From an uncultured Verrucomicrobiota bacterium (GTDB lineage Bacteria; Verrucomicrobiota; Verrucomicrobiia; Opitutales; Intestinicryptomonadaceae), in NCBI GenBank assembly GCA_949287395.1, contig CASEFZ010000094.1, forward strand, positions 1 through 34,018: a stretch of DNA of 34,018 nt, in the 5' to 3' direction. The translations under genes and the position numbers were made by a program. The notes beneath the pieces were generated by a model that saw nothing but the letters and a program-made list of their open reading frames with translations, made no database searches and was not told the DNA's origin. Each line of letters begins with the position of its first letter. The first letter of the stretch is position 1. Of the stretch, positions 1,639-24,901 are shown in pieces.

Positions 1639-3461
1639 AAAAGATAAGTTTAATTGCGGCGGTTTTTGCCGCGAGCGTTTCTATTGCCTGCGCGGCGGAC
1701 AGTCTGGATTTCTCAAAGATTGCGCCGCACCCGCGGCTGTTTATGAAGGCGGGCGCGGAGGGCACAATAAAGCAGAATATCTCCACGCGCCCAGGGCTTA
1801 AGGCGCTAAACGACGCCATATTGAATTCAGCCAAGGCAATGCTTAAAAAGCCGCCTTTGGAGCGCAACCAGATTGGAATGCGCATTTTGCACACAAGCAG
1901 GGACATGGTGCAGAGAATGGCCTTTTGGGGCTACGCATGGCGCATGACCGGCGATAAGGCCTACCCTGAGCGCGCCGAGAAGGAAATACGCAAGGTGGCG
2001 GAGTTTAAGGATTGGAATCCTAGCCACTTTCTCGACACCGCCGAAATGGCCTTTGCTTTCGCGATTGCCTACGACTGGTTTTACGACGCCTTTGATGCCG
2101 AAACCAAAAAACTCATAGCCGGGGAAATAGAGCGGAAGGCCCTGAAAGAGCTCTACGCCAGAAAATATTTTTGGCGCGCCTCCAGGCATGTAAGCAACTG
2201 GAACCAGGTTTGCAATTCGGGCATGCTGTGCGCGGCGCTCGCAATTTACGAGACCAATCCGGAGCTTTGCGGCAAGGTTGTGCGCGAGGCCGCAAGCGAC
2301 GTCGAGAGGGGCCTGAGAGACTGCTATTCAAAGGACGGCGCGTATGTCGAAGGCTACGGATATTGGACCTATGGGACAAGCTATCAGGTCTATTTGCAAC
2401 AGGCGCTTGTCAGCGCGCTTGGGACCGACGCGGGCCTTTACGAGAAATATCCCGCCCTTTTGAAAAGCGCAAAATACATGACCGCAATGCTGGGCCCCAG
2501 CGGCATGGCCTTCAATTATTACGACTCGTGGTTAGGAAAAGGGGGAAATCCGCTACTGCTGTTTTTTGCAAAAAAAACAAACGATCCGTCCCTGCTGTAT
2601 GACGAGAAGAAATTTTACGAGCCTGGAAAAGTTCGCTCGGGCGGATTTCAAGGATTATTTTCGCTCATATACGCGTCGGACACAGATTTTGATTCCGTGA
2701 AGGCGCCCAAGGAAAAGGTTTATTCTTTTCTCGACGGGGAAAGCCCCGTCATTTTGGCGCGCACCGGCTGGGAAAAGGAAGACTTGTTTTTCGGAATAAA
2801 GGGCGGCAAGGCTTCCACAAACCACGGGCACATGGACGCGTCGAGCTTTGTATTCGACGCGCTTGGCGAGCGTTGGGCTTTCGATTTGGGCGCCCAGGAC
2901 CACAATTCCCTTGAACGGCTTAAGATGAATATCTGGGGCTATTCCCCAACGAGCGACAGGTGGAAGGTGTGGCGCTACACAAACTATGTGCACAACATGC
3001 TTACGGTAAATTCAAGCCTAATAAACCCGTACGCATTCTTGCGTTTGGAGCCGCCGAGGGTTTCCGGAAACAGGGTGTCGGCAAGCCTGGATACGGGGGC
3101 GTTGTACGCCCCGGCTTTCAAAAAGAGCGCCCGCACGGTTTCCTTGGAAGACGGGAAGTTTTTGCGCGTTGAGGACACTGTGGAAAATGCTGGCAAGGAC
3201 TCGGAAATCAGGTGGACAATGTGCACCCATAAAGACGCGCGCGTGCTGGACTCAAAAACGATAAAGATCACCGCTCCAAGCGGGAAGACGCTTTTGGCTA
3301 AGCTGGTTTCGCCGTCGAATTTCAAGGCGGAAATCTTGTCGGCGGACAGCGGAAATTCGTGGGACACTAAAAATCCCGACAACAGCTTGGCAACTTTTTC
3401 GGGAAAGTTTGCGCCCTTCCAAAAGGGAAAAATAGTTGTGGAGCTAATCCCCCAAAAGTGA
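1635..3461 (+). CDS. Secreted heparinase II/III family polysaccharide lyase
   Basis: 608-residue paralogue of the preceding gene, probably a periplasmic or secreted lyase for a uronate-containing polysaccharide. Residues 1-20 form a signal peptide (MKK, hydrophobic core, ACA-A cleavage site). No good lipobox is seen although a cysteine lies near the cleavage site. The helical domain carries WGYAW, AYDWFYDAF, SNWNQVCNSG and GYWTYG. The sheet domain carries RTGWEKEDLFFGIKGGKAS, then HGHMDASSFVFDALGERW. Asn, Tyr and His residues in these motifs correspond to the regions that hold catalytic residues in heparinase II and PL17-type lyases (family knowledge). The start overlaps the upstream stop by ATGA, implying translational coupling. 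The uronate operon 6 kb downstream fits use of the released uronic acids, but the lyase family number and substrate are open. Confidence 0.85.
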   Translation: MKKISLIAAVFAASVSIACAADSLDFSKIAPHPRLFMKAGAEGTIKQNISTRPGLKALNDAILNSAKAMLKKPPLERNQIGMRILHTSRDMVQRMAFWGYAWRMTGDKAYPERAEKEIRKVAEFKDWNPSHFLDTAEMAFAFAIAYDWFYDAFDAETKKLIAGEIERKALKELYARKYFWRASRHVSNWNQVCNSGMLCAALAIYETNPELCGKVVREAASDVERGLRDCYSKDGAYVEGYGYWTYGTSYQVYLQQALVSALGTDAGLYEKYPALLKSAKYMTAMLGPSGMAFNYYDSWLGKGGNPLLLFFAKKTNDPSLLYDEKKFYEPGKVRSGGFQGLFSLIYASDTDFDSVKAPKEKVYSFLDGESPVILARTGWEKEDLFFGIKGGKASTNHGHMDASSFVFDALGERWAFDLGAQDHNSLERLKMNIWGYSPTSDRWKVWRYTNYVHNMLTVNSSLINPYAFLRLEPPRVSGNRVSASLDTGALYAPAFKKSARTVSLEDGKFLRVEDTVENAGKDSEIRWTMCTHKDARVLDSKTIKITAPSGKTLLAKLVSPSNFKAEILSADSGNSWDTKNPDNSLATFSGKFAPFQKGKIVVELIPQK

Positions 3462-8476: not shown

Positions 8477-9469
8477 CTAATGCTTTTTTAGCGCGGAACT
8501 TTGCCTTGGGACAAATTGGCCGCGTATGCTTCTTACGCCCATGGGTTTTTCAGAGATTATTGCCTCAAAACAGAATTCGGCATACTCTTTCAACGGCTGG
8601 CGAAAGGAGGTTATGGTGGGTATGTAATTTGACGAGGCGGGGAGATCGTCGAAACCAACCACGGCAATGTCCTTGCCCGCCGCGACTCCCCCTTCCGAAA
8701 GTGCCGATATCACGCCCATGGCGAAAGTGTCGTTGGCGCACACAACGGCGTCGGGAAGTTTGCCCTTTTGCAAAATGGATTTGCCTATTGCCTTGCCGGT
8801 ACAAAATTCGCCGCCGGCGCCGTTGTCCCGCTCAAAAGACACCTCTATGTCGAATTTTTCGGCGGCCTTTTGAAAGGCCAATTTGCGCTGCTGGTATATC
8901 TCAATGGGCTTGTAGGCAAAGCATACGCTCTTGGCGCAAACATCCGAGGCCAAGTGGGAAAGAATTTTATCCATGGCGTCGTCTTCGTCGACGGATACCG
9001 ACAGCCACAGGCGCTTGTCTTCGGCGCCGTGCCCTATTCTGGCAACTGGCTTGTTTTTGAAGTCGTCAATCCAGTCAAGGTCGCAATAACTGCCCAAAAC
9101 TATGACGCCGTCAACAGAGTGTTTGTACAGGGGAATCAAATTTGAGCGTTCGGGAATCCTCTCCGGAAAACCGACGAGCAGAAGCGAATACTTGTTGTCG
9201 TGCGCAAGCTTCTGAAATTCGGTAAGAAGGGCGGTAAAGTACGGGTTTTTAAAGTCGTAAACGACAATCCCTATGGTTTGCGTTTTCTTGCCCTTAAGCA
9301 TCAGTGCGGCTGGAGAGGGAACATAGTTCATTTCCTCCGCAAGCTTTAGAATGCTGTCTATTCTGCGCTGGCTGACACCTATCCTGTGCGCCTGCCCGGA
9401 AAGCACCCTCGATACGAGCGACGTTGACACCCCAAGCTTTAGGGCTATGTCTTTTTGCGTGGATTTCAT
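8477..9469 (-). CDS. LacI family transcriptional regulator of the uronate operon
   Basis: 330-residue DNA-binding regulator. Residues 3-25 form the LacI helix-turn-helix (QKDIALKLGVSTSLVSRVLSG), followed by the hinge region (YVPSPAALMLKGKKTQTIGI) and a periplasmic-binding-protein-like effector domain. The domain shows the usual NPYF after strand 1, the VDGVIVLGS-type strand, and VVCANDTFAMGVISAL plus VVGFDDLP near the C-terminus. The ATG at 9469 is 80 bases from the divergent uxaC start, and a perfect palindrome of LacI-operator type lies in that gap. It most likely represses the uxaC operon in the absence of a sugar-acid inducer. The inducer is unknown. Autoregulation is possible because the gap is shared. 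Confidence 0.93.
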   Translation of the reverse strand: MKSTQKDIALKLGVSTSLVSRVLSGQAHRIGVSQRRIDSILKLAEEMNYVPSPAALMLKGKKTQTIGIVVYDFKNPYFTALLTEFQKLAHDNKYSLLLVGFPERIPERSNLIPLYKHSVDGVIVLGSYCDLDWIDDFKNKPVARIGHGAEDKRLWLSVSVDEDDAMDKILSHLASDVCAKSVCFAYKPIEIYQQRKLAFQKAAEKFDIEVSFERDNGAGGEFCTGKAIGKSILQKGKLPDAVVCANDTFAMGVISALSEGGVAAGKDIAVVGFDDLPASSNYIPTITSFRQPLKEYAEFCFEAIISEKPMGVRSIRGQFVPRQSSALKKH

Positions 9470-9477
9470 CTAAAAAA

Positions 9478-9505
9478 TTGACAACCGTTCCCGCGGCGTT
9501 AGGAT
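9478..9505 (+). promoter_or_regulatory. Candidate promoter of the uronate operon
   Basis: TTGACA (perfect -35 consensus) at 9478-9483 and TAGGAT at 9500-9505, 16 bases apart. A start of transcription near 9512 would put the palindrome at 9522-9535 just downstream of it, a classic repression position for LacI-family proteins. Confidence 0.5.
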
Positions 9506-9521
9506 ATTTGACTTGACTATA

Positions 9522-9535
9522 CTCAAACGTTTGAG
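9522..9535. promoter_or_regulatory. LacI-type operator palindrome
   Basis: CTCAAACGTTTGAG is a perfect 14-bp palindrome with the central CG step typical of LacI-family operators. It lies between the divergent regulator and uxaC, after the candidate promoter. Its right end overlaps the start of the uxaC ribosome binding site (AGAGGA, 9534-9539). I found no second copy elsewhere in the window. Confidence 0.7.
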
Positions 9536-9548
9536 AGGATTCGGGTCA

Positions 9549-10949
9549 ATGAAAAAATTTATCCACGAGGATTTTCTTTTACAGAACGAATATTCGCGCA
9601 AGTTGTACCACGAGTACGCGGAGAAACAGCCGCTGATAGATTTCCACTGCCATCTTGACCCCAAGGAGGTTGCCGAGGACAAGAAGTGGGAAAATATAAC
9701 CCAGATATGGCTGGGCGGCGACCATTATAAATGGCGCGCCATGAGGAGCGACGGCATAGACGAGAAGTACTGTACCGGAGACGCCCCCGACAGGGAGAAA
9801 TTTCAAAAATTTGCCGAAGCGCTTGCGCACATGTTGCGCAACCCGATGTACCATTGGTGCCACCTTGAGCTGGCGCGCTATTTCGGCATAGACGACAAAC
9901 TTTTAAACGGCAATACCGCCGAGGAAATATGGAACAGGGCAAATGAGCGCCTTTCAAGCCTTTCAGCGCGCGAGTTGATGAGGAAAAGCAATGTTGAGAC
10001 CGTCTGCACCACAGACGACCCAACGTCCGATTTGTGCTGGCACAAAAAGATATCGCAGGAGGGCTTTGAGGTGAAGGTTTTGCCAACCTTCAGGCCCGAC
10101 AAGGCTTTTGCTATAGAAGACCACAAGACCTACACGGAATATTTGGGCAAGCTTGAGAAGGCCGCCGGAATGGAGATACGCTCTTACGACGATCTGCTCA
10201 CTGCGATAAAGCGCAGGCACGACTACTTCCATTCTTTGGGCTGCAGGATTTCCGACTACGGCCTTGGAACTGTGCACTATAAAAACGCCTTTTATTACGA
10301 GCTTGAGGACACGTTTAAAAAGGTGACCTCAAGCAGCGAGATGATAGACGACGACGAAATACACGCGTTTAAATCGGCGCTGCTGCTCGAGTGCGCGGCA
10401 ATGGACTACGACGCGGGCTGGACGCGCCAGCTGCACATAGGGCCCATGCGCAACAACAATTCCAGAATGTTCGATAAGCTTGGCCCTGACACGGGTTTCG
10501 ACTCGATAGGTGAGTCCAACTACGCGCTTTCGCTTTCAAAGCATTTGGACAGGCTCGATTCAATAGGCAAGCTTGGGCGCACCATAATATACAACATAAA
10601 CCCCAAGGACAACGAGATGCTTGGCTCTATGTTGGGCAACTTCCAAAACAGCGACTGCCCCGGAAAGATACAGCTTGGGGCCGGCTGGTGGTTCTTGGAC
10701 AATATCGACGGCATAAGCAGAAATTTGGAGGCCGTTTCAAATCTGTCTTTGCTGTACAGGTGCGTAGGCATGCTTACGGATTCGCGTTCCTTCCTGTCGT
10801 ATGCGCGCCACGAGTATTACAGGCGCATACTTTGCAACATTCTTGGGACGGAGATGGAGAAGGGCCTGCTGCCGGACGATTTCGACCTTGTGGGCGAACT
10901 TGTCGAGAGGGTGTCTTACAAAAACGCCAAGGAGTATTTTTGCTTTTAG
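9549..10949 (+). CDS. uxaC: Uronate isomerase (glucuronate/galacturonate isomerase)
   Basis: Interconverts D-glucuronate and D-fructuronate, or D-galacturonate and D-tagaturonate, the first step of the Ashwell hexuronate pathway in the cytoplasm. From the ATG at 9549 the protein has 466 residues, close to the 470 of E. coli UxaC. Family marks include IDFHCHLDPKE with the HxH pair at residues 33 and 35 (amidohydrolase-fold metal site), the WLGGDHYKWRAMRSDG block, the TTDDPTSDLCWH block and a C-terminal RHEYYRRILC block. An upstream TTG at 9513 also opens the frame but lies in the promoter/operator, and AGAGGA sits 9 bases before the ATG. First gene of a six-gene operon ending at uxuA, so glucuronate is the likelier substrate. 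Confidence 0.96.
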   Translation: MKKFIHEDFLLQNEYSRKLYHEYAEKQPLIDFHCHLDPKEVAEDKKWENITQIWLGGDHYKWRAMRSDGIDEKYCTGDAPDREKFQKFAEALAHMLRNPMYHWCHLELARYFGIDDKLLNGNTAEEIWNRANERLSSLSARELMRKSNVETVCTTDDPTSDLCWHKKISQEGFEVKVLPTFRPDKAFAIEDHKTYTEYLGKLEKAAGMEIRSYDDLLTAIKRRHDYFHSLGCRISDYGLGTVHYKNAFYYELEDTFKKVTSSSEMIDDDEIHAFKSALLLECAAMDYDAGWTRQLHIGPMRNNNSRMFDKLGPDTGFDSIGESNYALSLSKHLDRLDSIGKLGRTIIYNINPKDNEMLGSMLGNFQNSDCPGKIQLGAGWWFLDNIDGISRNLEAVSNLSLLYRCVGMLTDSRSFLSYARHEYYRRILCNILGTEMEKGLLPDDFDLVGELVERVSYKNAKEYFCF

Positions 10950-11031: not shown

Positions 11032-12177
11032 GTGGTAAAGATAGGAGTCATAGGGCTTGGGCCAATAGGTTCGATGCACGCTGATAATTTGTTGTCCGGG
11101 AAGATCCCGGGAGCGCGCCTGGAGTGCGTTTGCGAACAAAAACCCGTCACAGACCCAAAGTATGGCGGTATAAAAATTTACCCGGATGTGGACGATATGC
11201 TCAGACAGGCGGATATTGACGCCGCGATAGTGTCCACGCCGTCTTTTACACACTTTCCTTTGGCGCAGAAGGTTCTTGCCGCCGGAAAGCACGTATTGGT
11301 TGAAAAGCCTATAGCCCTTTGTACGGCCGATGCCGCGGCTTTGGAGGACATAGCCAAGAAATCGGGCAAAGTTTGCGCCGTTATGCTCAACCAGAGAACA
11401 ACCCCGCTTTACGCGCGCATAAGGGAGCTTATAAAGGGCGGAAGCTTGGGAAAGGTAAACAGGTTTTCGTGGACGATGACAAATTGGTACCGCCCGGACA
11501 TATATTTCACGTCCAGCCCGTGGCGCGGCACTTGGAAGGGAGAGGCCGGGGGAGCGCTGATAAACCAGTCGATCCACAACATCGACATAATAGCGTGGGT
11601 GTTCGGCCTGCCGAAATCTTTGCGGGCGTGGTGCGAGTATGGGAAGTACCACAATATAGAGGTTGAAGACGAAGTTTCGTGCCACATGCAATATGGCGGC
11701 GGCCTGAGTGCCACGTTTGCGACATCGACTGGCGAGCATCCCGGCGAAAACAGGCTTGTGATAGCCTGCGACAGGGGCTTTCTTGTTGCCGCCGGCGGGG
11801 AGCTTTCGATAACTCGCTACAAGGACGGCTCTATTTCCGAATATACGGCAAATACAAAGTACATGTTCGGCTCTCCCGAGACGGAGGTTACGGTGGAGAA
11901 GTTTGACGGTGTCGGGCCGCAGCATGTTGGGGTTGTGTCCAACTTTGTGGGCGCGATAGAGGGAAAGTGCGCGCTTGAATACGGGCCGGAGCAGGGAATG
12001 CTTTCTTTGCAGATAGCAAACGCGATGCTTCTGTCGTCTTGGAATAATGCTGACGTTTCGCTGCCGATTTGCGACGCCGAGTACAAGGCAAAGCTTGAGG
12101 AAAAGATGGCCGGAAGCGTGCTGAGGCAGAACCCCAAGACGGATTTCATAGTGGATTTCCAGAAATCCTTCAGGTAG
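11032..12177 (+). CDS. Gfo/Idh/MocA family NAD(P)-dependent oxidoreductase
   Basis: Cytoplasmic sugar or sugar-acid dehydrogenase of 381 residues; substrate unknown. The N-terminal Rossmann fold begins with GVIGLGPIGSMHA (nucleotide-binding GLGPIG at residues 8-13). The family motif EKP is at 91-93, where the lysine is the usual active-site residue. GGALINQSIHNID at 173-185 supplies the second catalytic motif with H182. The GTG start at 11032 follows AAGGAT by 5 bases. An 82-base gap separates it from uxaC and 9 bases separate it from the next gene. Being inside a UxaC/UxuA operon suggests oxidation or reduction of a uronate, a uronate glycoside or a related aldonate feeding the pathway (inference). 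Confidence 0.88.
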   Translation: MVKIGVIGLGPIGSMHADNLLSGKIPGARLECVCEQKPVTDPKYGGIKIYPDVDDMLRQADIDAAIVSTPSFTHFPLAQKVLAAGKHVLVEKPIALCTADAAALEDIAKKSGKVCAVMLNQRTTPLYARIRELIKGGSLGKVNRFSWTMTNWYRPDIYFTSSPWRGTWKGEAGGALINQSIHNIDIIAWVFGLPKSLRAWCEYGKYHNIEVEDEVSCHMQYGGGLSATFATSTGEHPGENRLVIACDRGFLVAAGGELSITRYKDGSISEYTANTKYMFGSPETEVTVEKFDGVGPQHVGVVSNFVGAIEGKCALEYGPEQGMLSLQIANAMLLSSWNNADVSLPICDAEYKAKLEEKMAGSVLRQNPKTDFIVDFQKSFR

Positions 12178-12186
12178 GGGCGGGCG

Positions 12187-13272
12187 ATGTCGAAGCACAG
12201 TACAGGTTACGATTACGTTCCCGACGGCGGCGCCTGCAAGGTCATCGGCGAGGGCGATTTATTTTTTGCGGTTGCGGGCTTGGACCACGGGCACATATAT
12301 GCGCAGACTCAGGGCCTGATAAACGCAGGGGCGGAGTGCAAGTTTGTGTACGACCCCGATGCCGCAAAAATCGTGGAGTTCAAGAAGAGGTTTCCTGGGG
12401 TGAAGGTTGCGGGAAGTTTGGACGAGATTTTGTCGGACTGCCAGGTGAAGCTTGTTGCCAATGCGGGAATACCGGCGCGGCGCTTCGATATGGGAGAGGC
12501 GGCCTTAAATGCCGGCAAGCACTTTTTTGTGGACAAGCCCCCGTTTACGTCGCTTCAGCAGCTTGCAAAGGCGCGCGATTTGACTGCCAAGACCGGCTTG
12601 AAGTATATGCCCTACTATGCGGAGCGTATTCACAACGAGGCCGCCGAAAAGGCCAATGAGCTTATAAAAAGCGGGCGCATAGGCAGGGTTGTGCAGGTCA
12701 CGATTTTGGCGCCGCACAGGCTTTCCAAGGCGGCGCGCCCGGGGTGGTTTTTTAAAAAGGCGGAGTATGGCGGAATTTTGTGCGATATAGGCTCGCACCA
12801 ATTCGAGCAGTTTTTGGAATTTTCGGGCGCGGAGGGCGGAACTGTAGAATATGCGCGCGTTGACAACATAAACAACCCGGACAATCCCGAGTTGGAGGAT
12901 TTCGGAGAGGCGGTTGTGCGGCTTGACAACGGTGCCTCCGGCTTTTGCCGCGTGGACTGGTTTACGCCGGACGGCCTTCCCGTGTGGGGAGACGGGCGAA
13001 CCGTCATAATGGGAACGGAAGGGTACATAGAGATACGCAAGTATATAGACTATTCGCGGGAGGGTAATCCGTCGCAGGTTCTCTATGTGACCGACGGGCG
13101 CGGAATTGAGCGCATAGACTGTTTGGGAATGGGCTTCCCGTTTTTCGGAAAATTCGTGCTGGATATATTGAACGGAACGGAAAATGCAATGACGCAAGAG
13201 CACGCTTTTGCCGCGGCGGAGCTGTCGCTTTTGGCGCAGGAGAAGGCCGATGCGGCGAGGGCCGGCAGGTAA
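12187..13272 (+). CDS. Second Gfo/Idh/MocA family oxidoreductase
   Basis: 361-residue relative of the previous gene but from a different subgroup. The nucleotide-binding turn reads AGLDHGHI (residues 30-37) rather than GxGxxG, a pattern I associate with a branch of this family common in carbohydrate-degradation loci. DKP at 116-118 keeps the active-site lysine (K117), and GGILCDIGSHQFEQ at 195-208 keeps the histidine (H204). About 20 residues precede the Rossmann strand. Nine bases separate it from the upstream gene. A tandem pair of such enzymes can act together in oxidising and re-reducing a sugar ring, as known for other Gfo/Idh/MocA pairs, but here this is only a suggestion. The substrate is not predictable from sequence. 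Confidence 0.86.
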   Translation: MSKHSTGYDYVPDGGACKVIGEGDLFFAVAGLDHGHIYAQTQGLINAGAECKFVYDPDAAKIVEFKKRFPGVKVAGSLDEILSDCQVKLVANAGIPARRFDMGEAALNAGKHFFVDKPPFTSLQQLAKARDLTAKTGLKYMPYYAERIHNEAAEKANELIKSGRIGRVVQVTILAPHRLSKAARPGWFFKKAEYGGILCDIGSHQFEQFLEFSGAEGGTVEYARVDNINNPDNPELEDFGEAVVRLDNGASGFCRVDWFTPDGLPVWGDGRTVIMGTEGYIEIRKYIDYSREGNPSQVLYVTDGRGIERIDCLGMGFPFFGKFVLDILNGTENAMTQEHAFAAAELSLLAQEKADAARAGR

Positions 13273-13358: not shown

Positions 13359-15080
13359 ATGGCAGAAATATTGGACAATCCGCAGCTGGAGGCGCAGCGC
13401 AAAGAAATAGTGGAGGCGAGAAGGAAAGGCGTTTTGCCTCTTTTGGGAGTGTTTACAAAATTTTCCGGGCCCGGCTGGATGCAGAGCGCGACAACATTGG
13501 GCGGCGGTTCTCTGGCGTCGGCCTTGTATTTGGGCGTGTTGGGCGGATTCGGGTTCATGTGGCTGCAGCCCTTTGCGATGATATTGGGCATAATTATGCT
13601 GAGCGCAATTTCCTATGTGACGCTGTCGATATCAAGCAGGCCGATGGTTGCCATAAATAAGCAGATAAGCCCGATTCTCGGCTATGGCTGGGCAATAGGG
13701 TCTATGTTGTCGTGCTTCGTGTTTGCTATGCCGCAATTTGCGTTGGGGGTGGCGGCAGTCACCCAGAACATAACCACTGTCGGAGAGGTCTCAAAGACTA
13801 CAGAGGTTATAATAACGGCGGTTTTATTTGCAATTGCCATGACCATGGTTGCCATGTATGCGGTCGGCGGAAGCTGGGTGAAAATTTTTGAACGCATAAT
13901 AAAACTCTCTGTGGCGGCAATAGTGGTCTGCTTCTTTGGCGTGGTGATAAGCTTGACCTTGGGCGGGGAAATAGACTGGAAGCGCGTTTGGGAGGGCTTT
14001 ATCCCGAACTTTTCGGTGCTTTCTGAGCCGTCGGACGATTTTATGGAATATTTAAACCGCCTTGGTGCAGAGGGAAAACAGTTCTGGTCTGCAATGATAG
14101 TTGACCAGCAACGCTCTGTTGTTATCAGCGCGGCGGCAATGGCCATAGGGATAAACATGACATTCCTGTTCCCCTATTCGATGCTTAAAAAGGGCTGGAA
14201 TAAGGATTTCAGAGGGTTGGCGATATTCGATTTGGCCACGGGGCTGTTTGTTCCATTTTTTGTGGCTACTTCGTGCATAGTGGTGGCTTCGGCCTCGCAG
14301 TTCCACGCAAAGCCCGCCGAAGGGTTGGCGATATCGAGGGTTGAGAACGGGGCGCTTGTGTATGCGGTTGTCGACGGCAAACAGGTTGTGCCGGCGCGCA
14401 ATTTGGTGAAACCCTATGTGGCGCTGCTTGACGAGCGCGTCTCGAAAGTTATGGGCGCGGAAAAATTTGCCGCACTCACCGAGGTTCAAAAAGACGCCGC
14501 GCGCAACGGGCTTTCCAGCCAGGAGAAGGAAATGGCCGCCATGCTTGTTAAGCGCGACGCCTCGAATTTGTCGGAGACATTGGTACCCCTTGTTGGCGAC
14601 GAGGTTGCCAGGTACATATTTGGCTTCGGGGTGCTGGGAATGGCGATGAACGCAATATTGATGAACATGCTCATTTGCGGGTTGTGCTTTGCAGAAATAT
14701 TGGGCAAGAAGGGGGCGAAGTGGAACTTGATTGGGTCGTCTCTGATAGTGGTCAGCGCGGTGATATCGCGGTTCTGCGCGGGCGCGCGCATGTGGCTTGT
14801 CATATACGCGGGCGTGATGGCGATGGTGTTGCTGCCGATAGCGTACGGGGCGTTCCTGGTGATAATGAACAGCGCCAGAATAATGAAGCAATCGCAGCCG
14901 CGCGGAATCAAGCGCGTTGTGTGGAACGTGCTGATGTCGTGTTCGGTGGCGGCAAGCTGCGTGGCAAGCCTTTGGGTTTTGTGGTCGAGTTTGGGCATAT
15001 GGGGCCCGGTGGCCTTTGCGGCTTTCCTGCTGCTTGTTGTGGCAAGCTATTTTGTGATGGCGGCGCGCAGAAAGGCTTAA
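13359..15080 (+). CDS. Nramp-like (APC superfamily) transporter lacking metal-binding motifs
   Basis: 573-residue inner-membrane protein with about 12 predicted helices. The start of helix 1 (GPGWMQSA) and the general layout resemble the Nramp divalent-metal family. In Nramp proteins helix 1 carries DPGN and helix 6 carries MPH, which hold the metal ion. Here the aligned positions read GGGS (residues 48-51) and, in helix 6, GINMTFLFPYSML, so the Asp, Asn and Met ligands appear absent. A hydrophilic insertion of about 100 residues (316-412) sits between helices 7 and 8. The gene lies inside the uxaC-uxuA operon and is its only transporter. I infer a uronate or sugar-acid importer; automatic annotation would probably call it a metal transporter. 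Start ATG 13359 has AGGA 9 bases upstream. Confidence 0.75.
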   Translation: MAEILDNPQLEAQRKEIVEARRKGVLPLLGVFTKFSGPGWMQSATTLGGGSLASALYLGVLGGFGFMWLQPFAMILGIIMLSAISYVTLSISSRPMVAINKQISPILGYGWAIGSMLSCFVFAMPQFALGVAAVTQNITTVGEVSKTTEVIITAVLFAIAMTMVAMYAVGGSWVKIFERIIKLSVAAIVVCFFGVVISLTLGGEIDWKRVWEGFIPNFSVLSEPSDDFMEYLNRLGAEGKQFWSAMIVDQQRSVVISAAAMAIGINMTFLFPYSMLKKGWNKDFRGLAIFDLATGLFVPFFVATSCIVVASASQFHAKPAEGLAISRVENGALVYAVVDGKQVVPARNLVKPYVALLDERVSKVMGAEKFAALTEVQKDAARNGLSSQEKEMAAMLVKRDASNLSETLVPLVGDEVARYIFGFGVLGMAMNAILMNMLICGLCFAEILGKKGAKWNLIGSSLIVVSAVISRFCAGARMWLVIYAGVMAMVLLPIAYGAFLVIMNSARIMKQSQPRGIKRVVWNVLMSCSVAASCVASLWVLWSSLGIWGPVAFAAFLLLVVASYFVMAARRKA

Positions 15081-15100
15081 TTTTTTAACTTGGAATGAAA

Positions 15101-15916
15101 ATGAAAAATCTTTTTGACATAAGCGGAAAGGTGATTGTTGTCACTGGGGCAACCGGCGTATTGGCTGGTGCCACGGCGCGTTATCTGGCGGGTTGCGGGG
15201 CGAAGGTAGCCTTTTTGGGGCGCAACAAGCAGAAGCTTGGCGAGGCGGAAAAGTTTGCCGCCGAGAACGGGTTGGACGTGCTTGCGGTGGAGTGCGACGT
15301 TTTGGACAGGGGCTCTCTTGAAAAGGCGCGCGACACTGTGGTTGAAAAATGGGGCGACGTTGAAGTTTTGGTCAACGGCGCCGGCGGAAACCAGCCGGGT
15401 GCGGTTATAGGCCCGGATGCGTCGTTTTTCGATTTGGACGTGTCGGCGTGGAGCAGCGTCTTAGACCTAAACCTGCGCGGAACGGTTTTGCCGACTCTCG
15501 TATTTTGCAAGGCTTTCGAGCGCACGAAGCGCGGATGCGTGGTAAATTTTTCGTCGATGACGGCGCAGTCGGCGGTCACGCGGGTATTTGGATATTCCAA
15601 TGCTAAGGCGGGAATAGACAATCTCACAAAGTGGTTGGCGGTAGAGTTTGCCAAGAAGATAGGCGAGGGCGTGCGCGTCAACGCGGTTGCGCCTGGCTTC
15701 TTTATAAGCAGCCAGAATAGAACTTTGCTGACAAATCCAGACGGTTCGCTGACGGAGCGCGGAAAGGATATAGTAAAAAAGACGCCTTTTGGGCGCTTTG
15801 GCGATTGCGACGAAGTGTTTGGCACAGTGCATTACCTGTGTTCCGATGCGGCGAAATTTGTCACGGGAACGGTAATTGCCATCGACGGAGGGTTCTCGGC
15901 CTTTTCCGGGGTTTAA
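15101..15916 (+). CDS. SDR family D-mannonate oxidoreductase (fructuronate reductase)
   Basis: Short-chain dehydrogenase expected to reduce D-fructuronate to D-mannonate with NAD(P)H, the step between UxaC and UxuA. About 271 residues. It has the cofactor motif TGATGVLAG near the N-terminus, VNGAGGNQPGA, the catalytic serine in NFSSMTAQ, the YSNAK catalytic Tyr-Lys pair, and a C-terminal KTPFGRFG then GTVIAIDGGFSAFSGV. These blocks match the SDR-type mannonate oxidoreductases found with uxuA in Bacillus and other phyla rather than the long-chain E. coli UxuB. ATGs at 15095 and 15101 are both in frame. GGA at 15092-15094 is 6 bases before the second and directly abuts the first, so 15101 is chosen. 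It lies between the transporter and uxuA. Confidence 0.87.
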   Translation: MKNLFDISGKVIVVTGATGVLAGATARYLAGCGAKVAFLGRNKQKLGEAEKFAAENGLDVLAVECDVLDRGSLEKARDTVVEKWGDVEVLVNGAGGNQPGAVIGPDASFFDLDVSAWSSVLDLNLRGTVLPTLVFCKAFERTKRGCVVNFSSMTAQSAVTRVFGYSNAKAGIDNLTKWLAVEFAKKIGEGVRVNAVAPGFFISSQNRTLLTNPDGSLTERGKDIVKKTPFGRFGDCDEVFGTVHYLCSDAAKFVTGTVIAIDGGFSAFSGV

Positions 15917-15934: not shown

Positions 15935-17137
15935 ATGGAACCTTTAAGAGAGGGTTTTAGATGGTACGGCGACGCCGATCCAGTGCCGTTGTCGTATATA
16001 GCTCAAAGCGGGGCGAAGGGCGTTTTTACGTCGCTTCATCAAATTCCCTATGGGGAGGAGTGGTCGGTTGCGGATATAAAGGAGCACCAGGCCAAGCTGA
16101 GGCGCTTTAATTTGGATTGGGACGTTGTCGAATCGGTTCCGGTTTCCGAAGACATCAAGCTTCGCACCGGCGACTACAAGCGCCATATACAAAACTACAA
16201 GAACACCGTGCGCAATCTTGCCGAATGCGGCGTAAGAAAGATTGTGTACAACTTTATGCCAGTTTTGGACTGGATCCGAACCGACCTGCACTACAAGCTG
16301 CCCGACGGCTCCCAATGCCTGCGCTTTGACCCTGTACAATTTGCGGCCTTTGAAATTTATCTTTTGAAGAGGGAAGGGGCCGAGGCCAACTACCCGCCGC
16401 AGCAGCTCGCCCTTGCGAAGGAGTTTTTCGAGTCTCTTTCTCCCGATTCCGTTAAGGCTTTTGAGCGCTCCATAATAGACGTATTTCCCGGCTGCAAGAT
16501 GGGGCTTCAGATAGAGGATGTCCGCAAGATGCTTGGGCGATATGACGGAATGGGGCCGCAAAAGCTTAAGGAAAATCTATTTTTGTTTTTGGAAGAGATT
16601 TGCCCGGTTGCCGAGGAGTGCTCAAGCATATTGGCAATACATCCTGACGACCCTCCGTTCGACGTTTTGGGGCTGCCGCGCATTGCATCGCGCTTGGAGG
16701 ATTTTCAGCAGATGTTTGATGCGGTTCCCTCTCCGTCCAATACAATATGCTTTTGCACGGGTTCGCTAAGCGCCGGAAATAGGAACGATATCCCGAGGAT
16801 GGCCGAGGCCCTTTCCGACAGAATATATGTTGCTCATTTGCGCAGTACCCAGACTGACCCTGACGGAAGCTTCTTTGAAGCGGGGCACCTTGAGGGCTCT
16901 GTGCTCATGGCCAAAGTTGTTTGGTTGCTCTTGAAGGCCCAAGACGCACTCTCCAAGCGCTGTGGCGAAAAGATAGTTTTTAGGCCCGACCACGGCCGCG
17001 ATATGGCCGATGATTTATCGAAGCCGCCCACTCCCAACCCGGGCTATTCATACATAGGCAGAATGAAGGGCTTGGCCGAAATACGAGGGCTTGAGGCGGG
17101 TCTGATTGCGGCGAATGGAGGGCTGCTTAATCTCTAA
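15935..17137 (+). CDS. uxuA: Mannonate dehydratase
   Basis: Dehydrates D-mannonate to 2-keto-3-deoxy-D-gluconate, the last step before KDG phosphorylation. The 400-residue length matches E. coli UxuA (394). Typical blocks are visible: FRWYGDADPVPLSYIAQSGA at the N-terminus, SLHQIPYGEEWS, VVESVPVSEDIK, YNFMPVLDWIRTDL, IHPDDPPFD, FCTGSL, HLRS and FRPDHGRDM. The His and Asp residues in the later blocks belong to the metal-binding active site of the TIM barrel. GGAG lies 7 bases before the ATG. The gene is last in the operon and is followed about 50 bases later by a strong terminator. KDG kinase and KDPG aldolase genes do not follow it here. Confidence 0.97.
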   Translation: MEPLREGFRWYGDADPVPLSYIAQSGAKGVFTSLHQIPYGEEWSVADIKEHQAKLRRFNLDWDVVESVPVSEDIKLRTGDYKRHIQNYKNTVRNLAECGVRKIVYNFMPVLDWIRTDLHYKLPDGSQCLRFDPVQFAAFEIYLLKREGAEANYPPQQLALAKEFFESLSPDSVKAFERSIIDVFPGCKMGLQIEDVRKMLGRYDGMGPQKLKENLFLFLEEICPVAEECSSILAIHPDDPPFDVLGLPRIASRLEDFQQMFDAVPSPSNTICFCTGSLSAGNRNDIPRMAEALSDRIYVAHLRSTQTDPDGSFFEAGHLEGSVLMAKVVWLLLKAQDALSKRCGEKIVFRPDHGRDMADDLSKPPTPNPGYSYIGRMKGLAEIRGLEAGLIAANGGLLNL

Positions 17138-17492: not shown

Positions 17493-18728
17493 TTAGCCCC
17501 CAGTGAGGGTTTTGATTATTTGGATGATAGGCAGGAACAAAGCTATAACGATAGTTCCTACAACCACCGCAAGGAACACTATCATTATAGGCTCAATCAC
17601 CGACGTTATAGCGCCGACAGAGTTGTCAACCTCTTCGTCGTAAGTGTCGGCTATCCTGTTCAACATTTCCGAGAGCTGGCCGGTTTCTTCGCCCACCTCA
17701 ACCATGCTCGTCACCATTGCCGGGAATATCTTTTGCTGGTCGAGCGGCGCCGCAAGAGGTTCACCGTCTCTTACGCGGTCGTGCACGCGCGATAGGGCAT
17801 CGGAAATCACCGTGTTTTTAATTGTTCCGCGCGTGATTGTAAGCGCCTCCAAAATCGGCACTCCCGAAGCAAGAAGCGTTCCGAATGTGCGCGTAAAGCG
17901 CGCCACCGTAGACTTCATCACAAGGTCCCCCAATTTTGGCAGATGCAACGCCAAGCGGTCTTTGGCAAGTATGCCAACTTTTGTCTTAAGTATGAACTTT
18001 ATGGCAAAAACAACCGCAACCACTATCAGTATGGCGGCAATATACCTGTCTTTAATAAAGTTGGATATATCTATAATACTCTGCGTCAAGGCCGGCATCT
18101 TTGCGCTTCCAAGCATTTCCGAGAAAATCTTTTGGAACTGCGGAACTACGAATATCATCAAAATGACCACTATCGCCACCGCCACAAACATAATCACGAA
18201 CGGGTAAACCATTGCGCTCTTAACCTTGTTTGTCGTCTTCATCAATTTTTCTTGGAATGTTGCCAGACGGTCAAGAACAACGTCCAACACGCCGCCCGCT
18301 TCGCCCGCGCGCGCCATGTTAACATAGAGCTTGTCGAATACCTTGGGATGCTGCGACAATCCGTCGGAGAATTTATTACCCGTGCGCACATTGTCCGAAA
18401 TGTGCTCAAGTATGGCTTTAAAGTAGGGGTTCTTCTCCTGCCTCGATATGACCTCGAGCGCCCTTAAAAGCGGCAGACCCGCCTTCAAAAGCGTGGCCAG
18501 CTGGCGCGAAAATATCGTCACATTCGCGCTTGAGACCCCAGTTCCGAACAGGGGTTTTGAACCCTTCTTCGTCTTTCCGGTTCCGAAACCGCCCATCTCG
18601 GTAATTCTGACAACATTGACGCCCTTGTCTGCCAGTTCCCTCTTGGCCTTGCTTTCGCTCGGTGCGTCTATGACACCCGAAAATTCGCTTCCGTCAGAGT
18701 CGGTTGCGATGTACTTGTATTTTGCCAT
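17493..18728 (-). CDS. Type II secretion/type IV pilus inner-membrane platform protein (GspF/PilC family)
   Basis: Polytopic inner-membrane protein on which the secretion ATPase and pseudopilin assembly converge. The 411-residue length is normal. After a short N-terminal cytoplasmic segment beginning YKYIATDSDG, two T2SF domains follow. The first starts TIFSRQLATLLKAGLPLLRAL with the P-type helix signature and ends in membrane helices at about 175-200 and 225-247. The second starts FTRTFGTLLASGVPILEAL and ends with a helix at about 378-403. AAGGAGCT about 8 bases before the ATG is a good ribosome binding site. It is 18 bases downstream of the first gspE-type gene. Pilin, secretin and prepilin peptidase genes are not in the window, so T2SS and pilus roles cannot be separated. 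Confidence 0.93.
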   Translation of the reverse strand: MAKYKYIATDSDGSEFSGVIDAPSESKAKRELADKGVNVVRITEMGGFGTGKTKKGSKPLFGTGVSSANVTIFSRQLATLLKAGLPLLRALEVISRQEKNPYFKAILEHISDNVRTGNKFSDGLSQHPKVFDKLYVNMARAGEAGGVLDVVLDRLATFQEKLMKTTNKVKSAMVYPFVIMFVAVAIVVILMIFVVPQFQKIFSEMLGSAKMPALTQSIIDISNFIKDRYIAAILIVVAVVFAIKFILKTKVGILAKDRLALHLPKLGDLVMKSTVARFTRTFGTLLASGVPILEALTITRGTIKNTVISDALSRVHDRVRDGEPLAAPLDQQKIFPAMVTSMVEVGEETGQLSEMLNRIADTYDEEVDNSVGAITSVIEPIMIVFLAVVVGTIVIALFLPIIQIIKTLTGG

Positions 18729-18746: not shown

Positions 18747-20423
18747 TTAAGTGTATTTCAAAACTTCGTCCACGGTTGTGGCGCCGTCAAATATCGCGCG
18801 CAAGCCGTCGTCGCGCAAAGTGCGCATTCCAAGCTCTATCGCCTTCTGTTTGAGAACAAGCGTAGGCGCCTTGGCCGTAATAAGGTCTCTGAGCGCGTCC
18901 GTCACCAAGAGCAGCTCGAATAGACCCTGTCTGCCGCGATACCCCAAACCGTTGCAATCGGCGCAACCCTTGCCGAAGAAGAATTGCTTGTCGGCAATTT
19001 CTACCGGATCCACCCCGAGCAATTCTATCATCTTCTGGTCGGGCTCGTAGGGCGTTCTGCAGGTGGGGCATATCCTTCTTACAAGTCGCTGCCCCAATAC
19101 GCCCTCAAGAGAGGCCGCTATCAGGTAGGGCTCCAAGCCCATATCCATCAGACGCGTCACAGCACCCGGAGAGTCGTTCGTGTGAAGCGTCGCCAAAACA
19201 ACGTGCCCGGTAAGCGATGCCTGCACCGCTATCTGCGCAGTTTCCAAGTCTCGTATTTCCCCCACCATTATCTTGTCGGGGTCTTGTCGCAGGAAGGCCC
19301 TCAAGCACCTTGCGAAGTCCAGCCCAACCTGGTGGTTTATCTGAACCTGCATTATGCCGTCGATTTCATATTCAACAGGATCCTCAGATGTAAGAATCTT
19401 TACGTCAACCGTGTTGACCTCGCGCAAGGCGGAGTAAAGCGTCGTGGTTTTTCCGGATCCAGTCGGCCCCGTCACAATAAATATGCCGTTAGGCATCCTG
19501 ACAAGGCGCCTTATGTTGTCCTCAAGCTCCTGCGTCATGCTCAACTTGTCCAAGTCAAGGCTGACAACGGATTTGTCAAGAACACGCAACACCACGCTCT
19601 CCCCGAACTGGGTAGGCAATGTCGAAACACGAAGGTCTATCGCGCGCCCGGAAATCGTCATCTTTATACGCCCGTCCTGCGGAATTCGCTGCTCGGCTAT
19701 GTTCAAATTCGCCAAAACCTTTATGCGCGATATTACGGGCAAAGCCAAACTCTTCGGCGGCGGCGCCATCTCGTAAAGAGTTCCGTCTATGCGGTACCTT
19801 ATCCTAAACTGGTCTTCGAAAGGCTCAAAGTGAATGTCACTGGCCTTGTCGCGTATCGCCTGCTGCAACACCAAATTTACAAAGCGTATAATCGGAGTCT
19901 CGTTGGCTATGTTAACGGCATCAGCCTCGCTTCCGCCCAAATCAAGCTCGGAAATTTCCGAAAGCAAGTCTTCTATGTCGGAGTCTTCCTCGCCGTAATA
20001 TTGCGCAAGCAGCTTGTCCACGTGGTCGGGATCCATCACAACTATGGTGACGTCCCTGTTTAGCGTGAAGGTGAGGTCGTCTATTATCGCATTGTTAAAA
20101 GGATCCCTCGCGTATACGCTTATGCTGGTATTGTCGCATTTAAAGGGTACAACGCCGTATGTCCTGGCCAAATTTGGCCTCAACTGTTTTATTATTGCGT
20201 CCTCTATCGTTATAGGGGGAATCGGCTGGTACTCGTATTTCAGGTAATCTGCCGCAAGTTCCAAAAGTGTCTGCCTCTCAATTAGGCCGGAATCAACTAT
20301 CGTATCCGCAAGCGATTTGCCCGTGCTTAAATGCGTCTCGTTCAACTCTTCAAGCTGCGCGCGCGTTATTAGCTTCGACGCCGCTACTATATCAAAAATC
20401 GTGCTGTTGTGATCTTCAAACAT
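18747..20423 (-). CDS. GspE/PilB-type secretion ATPase, copy 1
   Basis: Hexameric cytoplasmic ATPase that drives pseudopilus or pilus assembly. The 558-residue protein has an N-terminal MshEN-like region (about 1-145), an acidic linker, and the catalytic core. Motifs are Walker [10 protein letters not shown] (319-327), the Asp box ILTSEDPVE, Walker [16 protein letters not shown], and the His box ATLHTND. A tetracysteine zinc site is formed by C452/C455 and C487/C490, as in GspE and PilB but not in the retraction ATPase PilT. The start is set by a strong AGGAGGT that overlaps the upstream gene's stop codon. It is the second of two consecutive ATPase genes and is followed by gspF. Confidence 0.94.
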
Positions 20424-20429
20424 GGCGCT

Positions 20430-20436
20430 ACCTCCT
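20430..20436 (-). promoter_or_regulatory. Strong ribosome binding site overlapping upstream stop
   Basis: On the minus strand AGGAGGT lies 6 bases before the ATG at 20423 and shares two bases with the TAG of the preceding ATPase gene (20437-20435). This arrangement predicts coupled translation of the two ATPases at a fixed ratio. Confidence 0.75.
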
Positions 20437-22138
20437 ATGCCTCGTTCATCGTGACTTTAAGGACCTCGTCCGCGGTCGTCAGACCGCTTGTCACCTTTCT
20501 TACACCGTCCTCGCGCATGCTTCTCATCCCAAGCTCGCGGGCCTTCGCGCGGAGCTCAACCAGCGTGCGGCCCTCGTAGACCATTTGTTGAAGTTCCTCG
20601 TTTACTATAAATATCTCGAATATACCCATTCGGCCCTTGTAGCCTATGCCGTTGCACTTGGGGCAGCCTTCGCCGTGCATGAAGGTCACCTTGGAGGCCT
20701 CTATCTCGTTTATGCCTATGGCCTCCAAAACTTTTGTCTCCGGCTGGTAGGCAACCTTGCAGTTCGTGCAATTCTTGCGCACAAGCCTCTGGGCCAAAAC
20801 CGCCCTGAGAGAGGCAGACACAAGGAAGGGCTTTACCCCTATGTCCACCAGACGGGTCACCGCGCTCGGCGCGTCGTTCGTGTGCAGCGTGCTGAACACC
20901 ATGTGGCCCGTCAACGACGCATTTATGGCAATTTCCGCCGTTTCCAGGTCTCGAATTTCACCTATCATTATAATGTTCGGCGCCTGACGCAACATGGAAC
21001 GCAACGCCGCCGCAAAGGTCATGCCAACCTCCCTTCGCACCTGAACTTGGTTGATGCCGCCCATCTGGTACTCGACAGGGTCCTCAACCGTTATTATCTT
21101 GCGGTCGGGATGGTTCAAATAATTCAGCGCCGAATAAAGAGTTGTAGATTTACCGGAACCGGTCGGCCCCGTCACCAGGAATATTCCGTCCGCCATTCCG
21201 ACAACCCTCTCAAAAGTGGTTTGGTCGTCCGAGAAAAACCCGAGTTCCGGCAGACCCAAGCGCAGGCCCTCTTTGTCGAGAATACGCATCACTATGCTCT
21301 CCCCGTACACCGTTGGAAGACTTGAAACACGCAAGTCTATCTCCTTGTCCTTGTAGGGAATTTGTATGCGGCCGTCCTGCGGAACGCGCTTCTCGGCTAT
21401 GGATATGTTCGCCATCAGCTTCAAGCGCGATATTATCGACGGCTGCAAACGCTTCGGCGGATTCTCAACCTCAATCAGCACGCCGTCTATCCTGTACCTT
21501 ATCCTAAAGCGCTTCTCTAAGGGTTCAAGGTGAATGTCGCTCGCCCTGCGCTTTACGGCTTCGGTTATAAGCTTGTGCACATAGCGTATTATCGGGGCTT
21601 CTTCCTCGCTTACGTTTTCCTCGTTACCGGTCGGCAAAAGGGAATCGTCGTCATCCGACCCGAACATCTCCTTTGCGCCCGTCTTTACCCCGTACTGCTC
21701 CTCTATGGCGTTCGATATTTCCTCGGGAGTGGCCAAGCGCAAATCCAGCGGCAACTTCAGCAGGTGGCTTATATTGTCCACCAAATCCATATTCATCGGG
21801 TCGGATATGGCTATCTCAAGCTGGCCGTTGTTAAAGGCTATTGGCAGAACATTCAGCCGGCGTATCTCGTCCGAAGGCATAATCTCCTTCACCGAAAGAG
21901 GTATGTCTATGCCGGCAAGCGCTATTCGCGGAATATTGAATTCCTGCGAGAGCATCTTGGTAATGTCCTCGTACTTGCAGTACCTCTTGTCCACAAGAAC
22001 GTCTATTATCTTAGAATCCTGCTCGGATAGGGGTACGCCGTTCTCCTCTAATACCTTGCGTTCGGCGGCTATAACCTCGCCTCCAACAAGGCCTTTCTCT
22101 TCTATGAGTTGCAGTACAAAATCGTCTGCGGAAGTCAC
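20435..22138 (-). CDS. GspE/PilB-type secretion ATPase, copy 2
   Basis: 567-residue paralogue of the adjacent ATPase, also complete. It has an N-terminal MshEN-like domain (about 1-150), an acidic linker with SDDDDSLL, and a core with Walker [10 protein letters not shown] (324-332), Asp box [11 protein letters not shown], Walker [16 protein letters not shown], His box STLHTND and a tetracysteine site at C457/C460 and C492/C495. All catalytic motifs are intact, so it is not a decayed duplicate. The N-terminal domains of the two copies differ strongly while the cores are alike, which suggests different docking partners. It starts 45 bases after the rho stop and ends 11 bases before copy 1. Confidence 0.94.
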
Positions 22139-22183: not shown

Positions 22184-24901
22184 CTAACTATTCAATCCCA
22201 TCAAAAATTCAACATTTGTTTTCACTTTTTTTAGTCTTTGTATCAACATTTCCATCGCTTCGGTGCCGGGCACCCCCTTCATAGCCCTCCTAAGGGCATA
22301 TATTTTCTTCATTTCGTCCGGGTGGTAGAGCAGCTCCTCCTTGCGGGTGCCGCTCTTTTCTATGTTTATGGCCGGGAATATCCTCTTGTCGGACAACTGC
22401 CTGTCCAAGTGCAGCTCAAGATTCCCGGTTCCCTTGAATTCTTCAAATATCACCTCGTCCATCTTGCTGCCGGTCTCTATCAAAGCTGTCCCTATTATCG
22501 TCAGCGAGCCGCCCCCCTCTATGTTTCGGGCGGAGCCAAAAAACCTCTTCGGCTTCTGCAGCGCCGACGCGTCCACGCCGCCGGTCATAGTCCTTCCTCC
22601 GTTCGGCATCAGCGCGTTGTAGGCGCGCGCCAGACGGGTTATGGAGTCCAGCAGTATGACCACGTCCTTGCCGGCCTCCACCATTCTGCGCGCCTTGCTT
22701 ATTACCATTTCTGCCGCGTGCACGTGGCTGTGGGCGTCCTCGTCAAAAGTCGACGATATAACTTCGCAATCTACATTGCGCTTGAAGTCCGTCACTTCCT
22801 CCGGGCGCTCGTCCACAAGAAGTATTATCAGGTGGGCATCCGGCGAATTCAGCTGTATCGATTTTGCCATTCCCTGCATCAACACCGTCTTGCCAGTGCG
22901 CGGAGGCGCAACTATAAGCGCCCTTTGCCCGCGCCCTATTGGGGTGAGCAAATCTACCGCCCTCATCGAGAGGTTGTCCCACTTGGCACATTCGGGCGCC
23001 TCCATTATCATTCTCTTTGTCGGATAGTACGGCGTCAGCTCCGAAAATGTCACCAAATTCGCCAGTTCCGCAGGATTGGCCCCCGCCACGCTCACAAGCT
23101 TTACGGCAACTGGGCAGTTGGATCCGGTTGCGTCGCAATCGCGCGGCATTGCCGCCAAGACGCAAACTTCGTGCCCGCGCTGAAGCCTGTATTTGCTTAT
23201 CGTATGCTGGGGCACATACACGCACGCCCCGCGCAGCTTGTAGTTGTCGCAAACATAGGTCACAGCCCCGCCGTAGCCGTTCTCAAATACGTCGAGTATG
23301 CCGCTCACCTTAACCAGCTTGCCGCGGCTTTTGGCAAAGTCGAAATACGCCCTTGCAAGATCTCCCTTGTCCGAACCCCTCGAGTATTCCACCCCAAGTT
23401 CGTCAAATTTTTCCTGCATCTGCTTTGGCGAAAGCGCGTAAATTTCATCAAACCCGCCTTCGCTGCCTATCAGAAGCTCGCCGGAAATTTTAAAAATATC
23501 CGCGGTTTCCGGGTCGTATCCGGCGCTTTCCTCGGGGTGTGTCTCCGCCTTTTGGGGCAATTCGCCAGAAGGCGCATCAGATGGCTCCGCTTCGGAATTT
23601 TCTTCACCCTTTTCTGAGCGGTTCCCATCGGAGGCACAAATATCGCCAGTGGCCTCTGGGACAGAATCTGCCTCTTGTATGGCGCTGGCATCGGCTGAAA
23701 GTTTTGTCGTTTCATTCCCGCCGCTTTCGGCCGCGCCCGCATCGGGCTGTTCCTGCAACGGCAAAACTTCCGGCTTGGCTTCGGAGGCGGAATCCGCCAG
23801 TGTGCACGCCACTTCGCCTGTGGGCGAAGTGGTATTGACGCCGTTGTCTTTCTTTATCCCGAAAAATACATCGGCAAGCCAGTCCGAAATTGACGCGGCG
23901 CTTTTTAGAACGTTCCAATCCGGAAGCCCTGCCGGATTCATTGCGTCTTCATAAACCCCGCTTATCTGTATTTTCTGCCCACGCGGATTCTTCAATCTTT
24001 GCTGCGGCTGCTGCCCGCGCACATTCGGTCTTTGCTGGGCTTTCTGCGCCGCCTGGTTTTGCCCGTTGCGCTGGGCATTTTGCTGCATGCGCGGGTTTTG
24101 GCGCTGCTGCCCGCGCAGGGACTGCAAGCCTTGCGGCCTTTGCCCGCGCTGAAAACGGTTCTGCTGCCACGGCTGCCCGGCTCCGCGCCCTTCGCGCCAG
24201 TCTTGGCGCTGCCCGGGCTGAAAATCCCTCCCGCCCTGAGCCCGCGGATTTTGACGCTGCTGCCCGCGTTGCTGCCTCGGATTCTGGCGGTGCCAACGCC
24301 CTTCCTGTTGCGGCGGGCGCGCGGCTTCCGCTTCAGAATAATCTTCCCCGCGCCGGTTCGGGCGATCTTCCTCGTCCGCCACCGAAGCGTAGGAATCGGG
24401 GTTCAGGTCTTCGTCGGTTGTGGAAAAGTATTGCGGAATCTCGTCTGAGTCTTCTTCTCTGCGCCCGTTTGCCGAATATTCGCCGGCTCCGTCCTCATCA
24501 AAGGTTTCCTGCTCATCCGATTGGGATCTATTGTAGGCGAAATCGTCGGTGTTGCCCCTATGTACAAAAAGTTCGGTTTCAGGGTTTGCCGCGCCGGCGT
24601 CAGCCTCTCCGGTTTCAGCCGCTTCAAAACCCCTGTCTTCAGCGTAATTGGCAGAATTTCCAGCAGCGCCGGCCCAATCCGCCCCGTCGCGCACTTCAGA
24701 CTTAGAGCCCTGAACAACATCAGCCGGCTTCGCCTTCGGAGGCCTTCCCCTGCGCTTCTTCGGAGCCTCAGTTGCGTCAGCCTGTGCCGCATCCGCCAAT
24801 TCGGCGGTTGTTACGCGCGGCGGCCGTCCGCGCTTCCTCTTTACGGGCGCATCGGACGCATTCTGGTCCCCGATGCTTGGATTGGATTTTTCTTCGTCCA
24901 T
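22184..24901 (-). CDS. rho: Transcription termination factor Rho with long disordered N-terminal extension
   Basis: RNA-dependent helicase that ends transcription. At 905 residues it is more than twice E. coli Rho (419). Residues 1-60 contain two AT-hook-like motifs (KRGRPPR near 23-29 and RRGRPPK near 50-56). Residues about 70-195 are acidic. Residues 198-308 are rich in Gln, Arg and Asn (RGQQRQNPR-type repeats). A short segment with hydrophobic residues follows (311-350), then a second acidic, Ser/Ala-rich tract (355-465). The Rho core begins near 487: N-terminal helices, a cold-shock-like domain (about 527-605), and the ATPase with P-loop APPRTGKT (665-672), [30 protein letters not shown] and the [10 protein letters not shown] loop. 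In the cold-shock domain the usual GFGFLR is GYGGAVT. It starts 13 bases after coaE. Confidence 0.96.

Follow-up and report, generated by a model that had tools for sequence, protein, structure and literature searches.

A candidate sugar-acid carrier of the Nramp superfamily in a glucuronate-branch operon of Verrucomicrobiota

The uronate operon and its control region

The window, that is the whole stretch of 34,018 nucleotides that was analysed, carries a hexuronate catabolic operon in the order uxaC-gfo1-gfo2-NRL-uxuB-uxuA, in which an Nramp-related protein (NRL) is encoded among the catabolic enzymes and from which a LacI-family repressor gene diverges. The features of the locus are as follows.

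8477..9469, minus strand: LacI-family repressor, divergent from the operon
9478..9505, plus strand: sigma-70-like promoter TTGACA-16-TAGGAT (10/12 matches, consensus match only)
9522..9535, no strand: perfect palindrome CTCAAACGTTTGAG, predicted LacI-type operator, directly following the promoter
9513..10949, plus strand: uxaC, glucuronate isomerase (start probably 9549)
11032..12177, plus strand: gfo1, Gfo/Idh/MocA oxidoreductase, position conserved
12187..13272, plus strand: gfo2, Gfo/Idh/MocA oxidoreductase, position conserved
13359..15080, plus strand: NRL, Nramp-related 12-helix carrier (573 aa, ATG start, GGGS at residues 48-51)
15095..15916, plus strand: uxuB-like SDR (mannonate oxidoreductase model NF006132 (PRK08277) above cut-off)
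15935..17137, plus strand: uxuA, mannonate dehydratase

According to the domain annotation of the operon genes, NRL is the sole membrane protein encoded between uxaC and uxuA and no further transporter is present in the operon, as the original prediction had claimed. A hexuronate uptake system is expected to be the only transporter of a conserved operon for hexuronate catabolism, and NRL has this position. ExuT-type MFS and hexuronate TRAP importers share the expected role and the operon position with NRL, but belong to another fold and family and none of them is encoded in the NRL operon. Elsewhere in the genome, the nearest models of the three MFS proteins are of the efflux, nucleoside and phosphoglycerate type. 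An SDR and an IclR regulator are encoded beside one TRAP system, and an epimerase together with a GHMP kinase beside one SSS; the TRAP and SSS systems may be other acid carriers, none of them part of the NRL operon.

With respect to the control region, the layout of promoter and operator indicates that uxaC probably starts at ATG 9549 and not at TTG 9513. The 14-mer CTCAAACGTTTGAG, of which the copy at 9522 is the only perfect one found in the genome, is also located upstream of the operon in the relatives L032, L036 and L055, whereby L036 is the NRL locus of the cultured Puniceicoccaceae bacterium Marseille-Q1082. A wider LacI regulon was considered and rejected, as near operator matches genome-wide did not exceed those of the reversed-pattern control. 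Equally, a Mn, Mg or NiCo riboswitch upstream of NRL was rejected as there was no Rfam match.

Beyond the operon, two consecutive heparinase II/III-family proteins of 532 and 608 aa are encoded at 40-3461, which are possible lyases of polysaccharides and as such would set uronates free; between this pair and the uronate operon are lysS and two genes of the Lol-type ABC family. The window further encodes two tandem T2SSE/PilB-type ATPases (18747-22138), then a T2SSF protein (17493-18728), and a Rho-like terminator protein of 905 aa (22184-24901) with RNA-binding and ATPase domains at 532-850 and a long N-terminal extension that has no Pfam match. In a single 668-aa open reading frame at 31257-33263, an EPSP synthase domain is fused with a cytidylate kinase domain.

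An Nramp fold without metal and proton-pathway residues

The single Pfam match of NRL is Nramp (PF01566; 38.2 bits, cut-off 29.8), with no match among the NCBIfam models. As phmmer with the NRL sequence found no match in the PDB and the family profile (hmmsearch) reached only human NRAMP1, weakly, structural comparison was used. The AlphaFold model (pTM 0.78, mean pLDDT 81) comprises 12 helices, of which helix 1 is interrupted at 47-48 (GGGS) and helix 6 at 267-269 (MTF). Foldseek hits 1-24 of this model in the PDB are all entries of the Nramp superfamily, including DraNramp, EcoDMT, EleNRMT, BfraNramp, DMT1, NRAMP1, the YcsG model and NRAT, with a best TM-score of 0.81 (on target). Alignment of the family with canonical Nramps by hhalign gave a probability of 98.8%, and the GGSH-type Nramp-like group showed no significant similarity by the same method. 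Judged by the Pfam score above the cut-off and the broken helices 1 and 6 of the predicted model, NRL is a member of the Nramp superfamily with its LeuT/APC fold.

Compared with canonical Nramp/SLC11 proteins (MntH, DraNramp, ScaDMT), NRL shares the fold, the 12 helices, the GPG start of helix 1, the broken helices 1 and 6 and PF01566. On the other hand, it has GGGS in place of DPGN, lacks both MPH and any acidic residue in helix 3, carries a loop of approximately 100 residues between helices 7 and 8, and falls into a separate clade. The corresponding codons, computed from the start of the open reading frame, are located as follows.

13500..13511, plus strand: codons G48-G49-G50-S51, the helix 1 break, at the DPGN place of metal Nramps
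14142..14165, plus strand: codons A262-I263-G264-I265-N266-M267-T268-F269 of the broken part of helix 6, which has no MPH
14304..14594, plus strand: codons of the hydrophilic loop that connects helix 7 with helix 8 (residues 316-412)

Residues 48-51 are placed on the canonical DPGN by MAFFT, with canonical Nramps of the same phylum, and by hhalign, while hmmsearch with the family profile aligned the same stretch with human NRAMP1. In the MAFFT comparison the canonical rows taken from loci of the phylum have DPGN and MPH, as does the row for E. coli MntH. Helix 6 of NRL contains no MPH and its break reads AIGINMTF (262-269). The register of the MPH position is uncertain, as MAFFT sets M, P and H on G264, I265 and N266, and a reading of the break in the model locates it near N266-T268; the global hhalign alignment misplaced helix 6 and was left out of this assignment. 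M267 stays inside the break.

Neither Asp nor Glu occurs in helices 1, 2, 3, 6, 9 and 10 of the window NRL, including helix 3 (105-138), where no acidic proton-pathway residue is found. As a consequence, both the metal-ligand Asp and the helix 3 proton-pathway acids are missing, and NRL has lost metal and proton-pathway residues on an intact Nramp fold. In the model, helix 7 spans 282-315 and helix 8 spans 414-448, separated by the 97-residue loop 316-412, which is of mixed strand and helix and differs in length among relatives. An Nramp-like 12-helix protein at 13359-15080 with GGGS for DPGN, no MPH in helix 6 and a hydrophilic insertion of approximately 100 residues between helices 7 and 8 had been predicted by eye, and the alignments, the Pfam score and the structural model agree with this prediction.

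Loss of the canonical site is shared with the NRMTs, the Mg2+ transporters represented by EleNRMT, as is the fold (TM-score 0.81 on target). NRMTs, however, move Mg2+ with the helix 1 Asp retained in a DxxG-TxxA/T motif (PMC8806188), whereas NRL lacks this Asp.

The GGGS family and its genomic neighbourhood

Relatives of NRL were drawn from 54 related genomes, the genome collection and 289 genomes of the phylum. Those from the genome collection are all from Verrucomicrobiota, and none was found on a plasmid or phage. Near-invariant in the 38-member alignment are GPGW-x-Q-x-A-x-T-x-GGGS-L and A-x-G-I-N-M-T. None of the 38 members has an Asp or an Asn in this position of helix 1, and the family comparison includes one GGGT variant. 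In three relatives at greater distance the motif is GAGS, GGGS and GASS. Intact Asp/Asn/Met-Pro-His ligands, which would speak for metal transport, were found in no aligned sequence of the family. In the tree, which was built by a quick search under a site-homogeneous model and has long branches outside the family, the 38 members form one group (SH-aLRT 99), the canonical DPGN Nramps form a separate one (SH-aLRT 100), and the GGGS group is also apart from Nramp-like types with GTGS, GGSH, GPGS and GASD. Loci L127 and L128 of genomes G130 and G050 encode one such type, which is approximately 790 aa long, reads GTGS in helix 1 and, in contrast to the GGGS family, possesses a long C-terminal part.

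All same-family relatives with sufficient flanking sequence retain the gene order gfo1-gfo2-NRL-uxuB-uxuA (the L032 contig ends after NRL), while uxaC is part of the operon in many of these relatives and located elsewhere in the genome in several. This joint conservation of motif and operon in relatives shows that the arrangement is not due to chance. A KDG kinase gene adjoins locus L033, and KDG kinase and KDPG aldolase genes adjoin L041; with these two enzymes the glucuronate pathway is complete down to glyceraldehyde 3-phosphate and pyruvate.

Among distant loci, uxaC is located within 7 kb of NRL in 6 of 28 (genomes G319, G257, G240, G281, G289 and G156), against an expectation of 0.13 calculated from genome size and copy number, and the proximity occurs in three separate parts of the tree, the window clade counted. 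In the 54-genome set, uxaC is present in 26/26 genomes with NRL and in 14/28 without it (Fisher 1.5e-5), whereby the Fisher figure, like the Poisson figure for proximity, ignores shared ancestry. The one-contig assembly G011, the only genome of the same genus without NRL, is also without uxaC. As uxaC is common in the phylum (213/289 genomes), the co-occurrence is supportive, not decisive.

Many distant members do not adjoin uronate genes. Among 114 genes around distant NRLs, a Gfo/Idh N-terminal domain is present in 20, a xylose-isomerase-like TIM barrel in eight, 3-keto-disaccharide hydrolase, sulfatase and SDR domains in five each, and UxaC in two. Gfo/Idh genes are common in Verrucomicrobiota, and adjacency to them alone is therefore weak evidence. 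The distant NRL genes L045, L047, L050 and L052 are located next to or near genes for plastocyanin/azurin-domain (cupredoxin) proteins. Cumulatively, the repeated link of NRL with uronate and sugar-oxidoreductase genes, together with a local LacI-type control region, is strong. The expectation that homologues sit with uronate genes in Verrucomicrobiota is supported by the same-family core with uxuB-uxuA and by the distant loci near uxaC, while the metal-homeostasis neighbourhood that would have contradicted it was not encountered, as none of the 25 commonest neighbour families of distant NRLs is of this kind.

Candidate substrates and the place of NRL among Nramp-related proteins

Loss of the metal ligands and the gene context both support the proposal, made in the original prediction, of a uronate or sugar-acid carrier on an Nramp/APC scaffold, with a free hexuronate, another sugar acid or a uronide as possible substrate. 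We consider it likely that NRL is the inner-membrane secondary transporter of the glucuronate-branch operon and imports hexuronates, related sugar acids or uronides, not metals. For the Verrucomicrobiota clade as a whole (GPGW-x-Q...LGGGS in helix 1, GINMTF in helix 6), activity on carboxylated sugars in place of metals is favoured with less assurance, at slightly better than an even chance.

In the proposed scheme, the LacI protein would be bound to the operator at 9522-9535 in the absence of substrate and be released by a pathway intermediate, whereupon NRL would take up the sugar acid. The helix 1 break G48-G49-G50-S51 is predicted to face the helix 6 break G264-I265-N266-M267-T268, so that backbone amides and polar side chains may hold the carboxylate and the hydroxyls of the substrate. 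Glycine motifs bind substrate in a like manner in APC amino-acid carriers. Gfo1 and Gfo2 would adjust or release the sugar by oxidation or reduction, UxaC and the UxuB-like enzyme would convert the sugar acid to mannonate, and UxuA would convert mannonate to 2-keto-3-deoxygluconate.

That Gfo/Idh is the commonest neighbour across the family, that 3-keto-disaccharide hydrolase and sugar TIM-barrel genes recur near NRL and that gfo1-gfo2 are always inside the operon, with uxaC outside in several relatives, would also fit a carrier of a non-acidic glycoside or disaccharide, which the Gfo/Idh pair would process via 3-keto intermediates with the uronate enzymes acting on one released part. We regard this reading as unlikely, since UxuB and UxuA accompany NRL in the window family wherever the sequence reaches and no NRL-bearing relative lacks uxaC (26/26). 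Both the glycoside and the sugar-acid reading would be satisfied by a uronide, for example an aldobiouronate.

Transport of a divalent cation (for example Mn2+ or Mg2+) for the metal-dependent enzymes of the pathway, as discussed for YcsG/MntG, would be in line with the Nramp fold of NRL. UxuA enzymes are generally metal-dependent. Counted against the sugar-acid reading are also M267, which remains in the helix 6 break, the four distant loci near cupredoxin genes, the TRAP and SSS systems as possible acid carriers outside the operon, and the genome content, as neither another Nramp nor a FeoB_C match was found in the genome. Moreover, overexpression of YcsG raises cellular Mn (PMC10448178). 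However, the helix 1 Asp, which has been described as universal among SLC11 proteins and required for transport (PMC8806188), is missing from all aligned family members, and no acidic residue is present in helices 1, 3 and 6 of the window NRL. Instead of a metal-responsive RNA recognized by Rfam there is a local LacI-type control region, and metal genes are missing from the 25 most frequent neighbour families, so that a cation substrate appears quite improbable. Finally, an exporter or sensor role is barely credible: although transport direction cannot be read from sequence, NRL is the sole membrane protein of a catabolic operon, has been lost along with uxaC from G011, and occupies the place of the importer in uronate operons.

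Like NRL, YcsG/PxpT/MntG are Nramp-family proteins encoded in an organic-acid catabolic operon, which for YcsG is the 5-oxoproline operon, although operon and pathway are different; the likeness observed is structural (Foldseek match to the YcsG model 9a52). The proteins have been placed in the 'G-motif 3' group (PMC12873925). Growth of C. glutamicum on 5-oxoproline requires PxpT, a relative of B. subtilis YcsG (PMC13274462), which provides a precedent for a non-metal Nramp-like carrier; this precedent is contested as another group reported YcsG to be a Mn importer and renamed it MntG (PMC10448178). A 2026 preprint considers Nramp-related groups other than the NRMT-like and MntG-containing ones to be entirely uncharacterised (PMC12873925). 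Among the open-access papers listed in the literature searches, none had assigned an Nramp-like protein to the uptake of uronates or sugars, in agreement with the original view that such a role is not generally assigned to the family.

Nramp-related proteins without a metal site are numerous and still named Nramp, and the GGGS family provides a concrete candidate for a non-metal substrate class in one of these groups. If the sugar-acid reading is true, the Nramp superfamily would have a branch for sugar acids, with a Gly-Gly-Gly-Ser break replacing the metal-binding Asp-Pro-Gly-Asn, annotations in many genomes would be corrected and the missing uptake step of uronate catabolism would be supplied for these Verrucomicrobiota. 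One membrane scaffold would then be suited to sugar acids as well as to bare metal ions.
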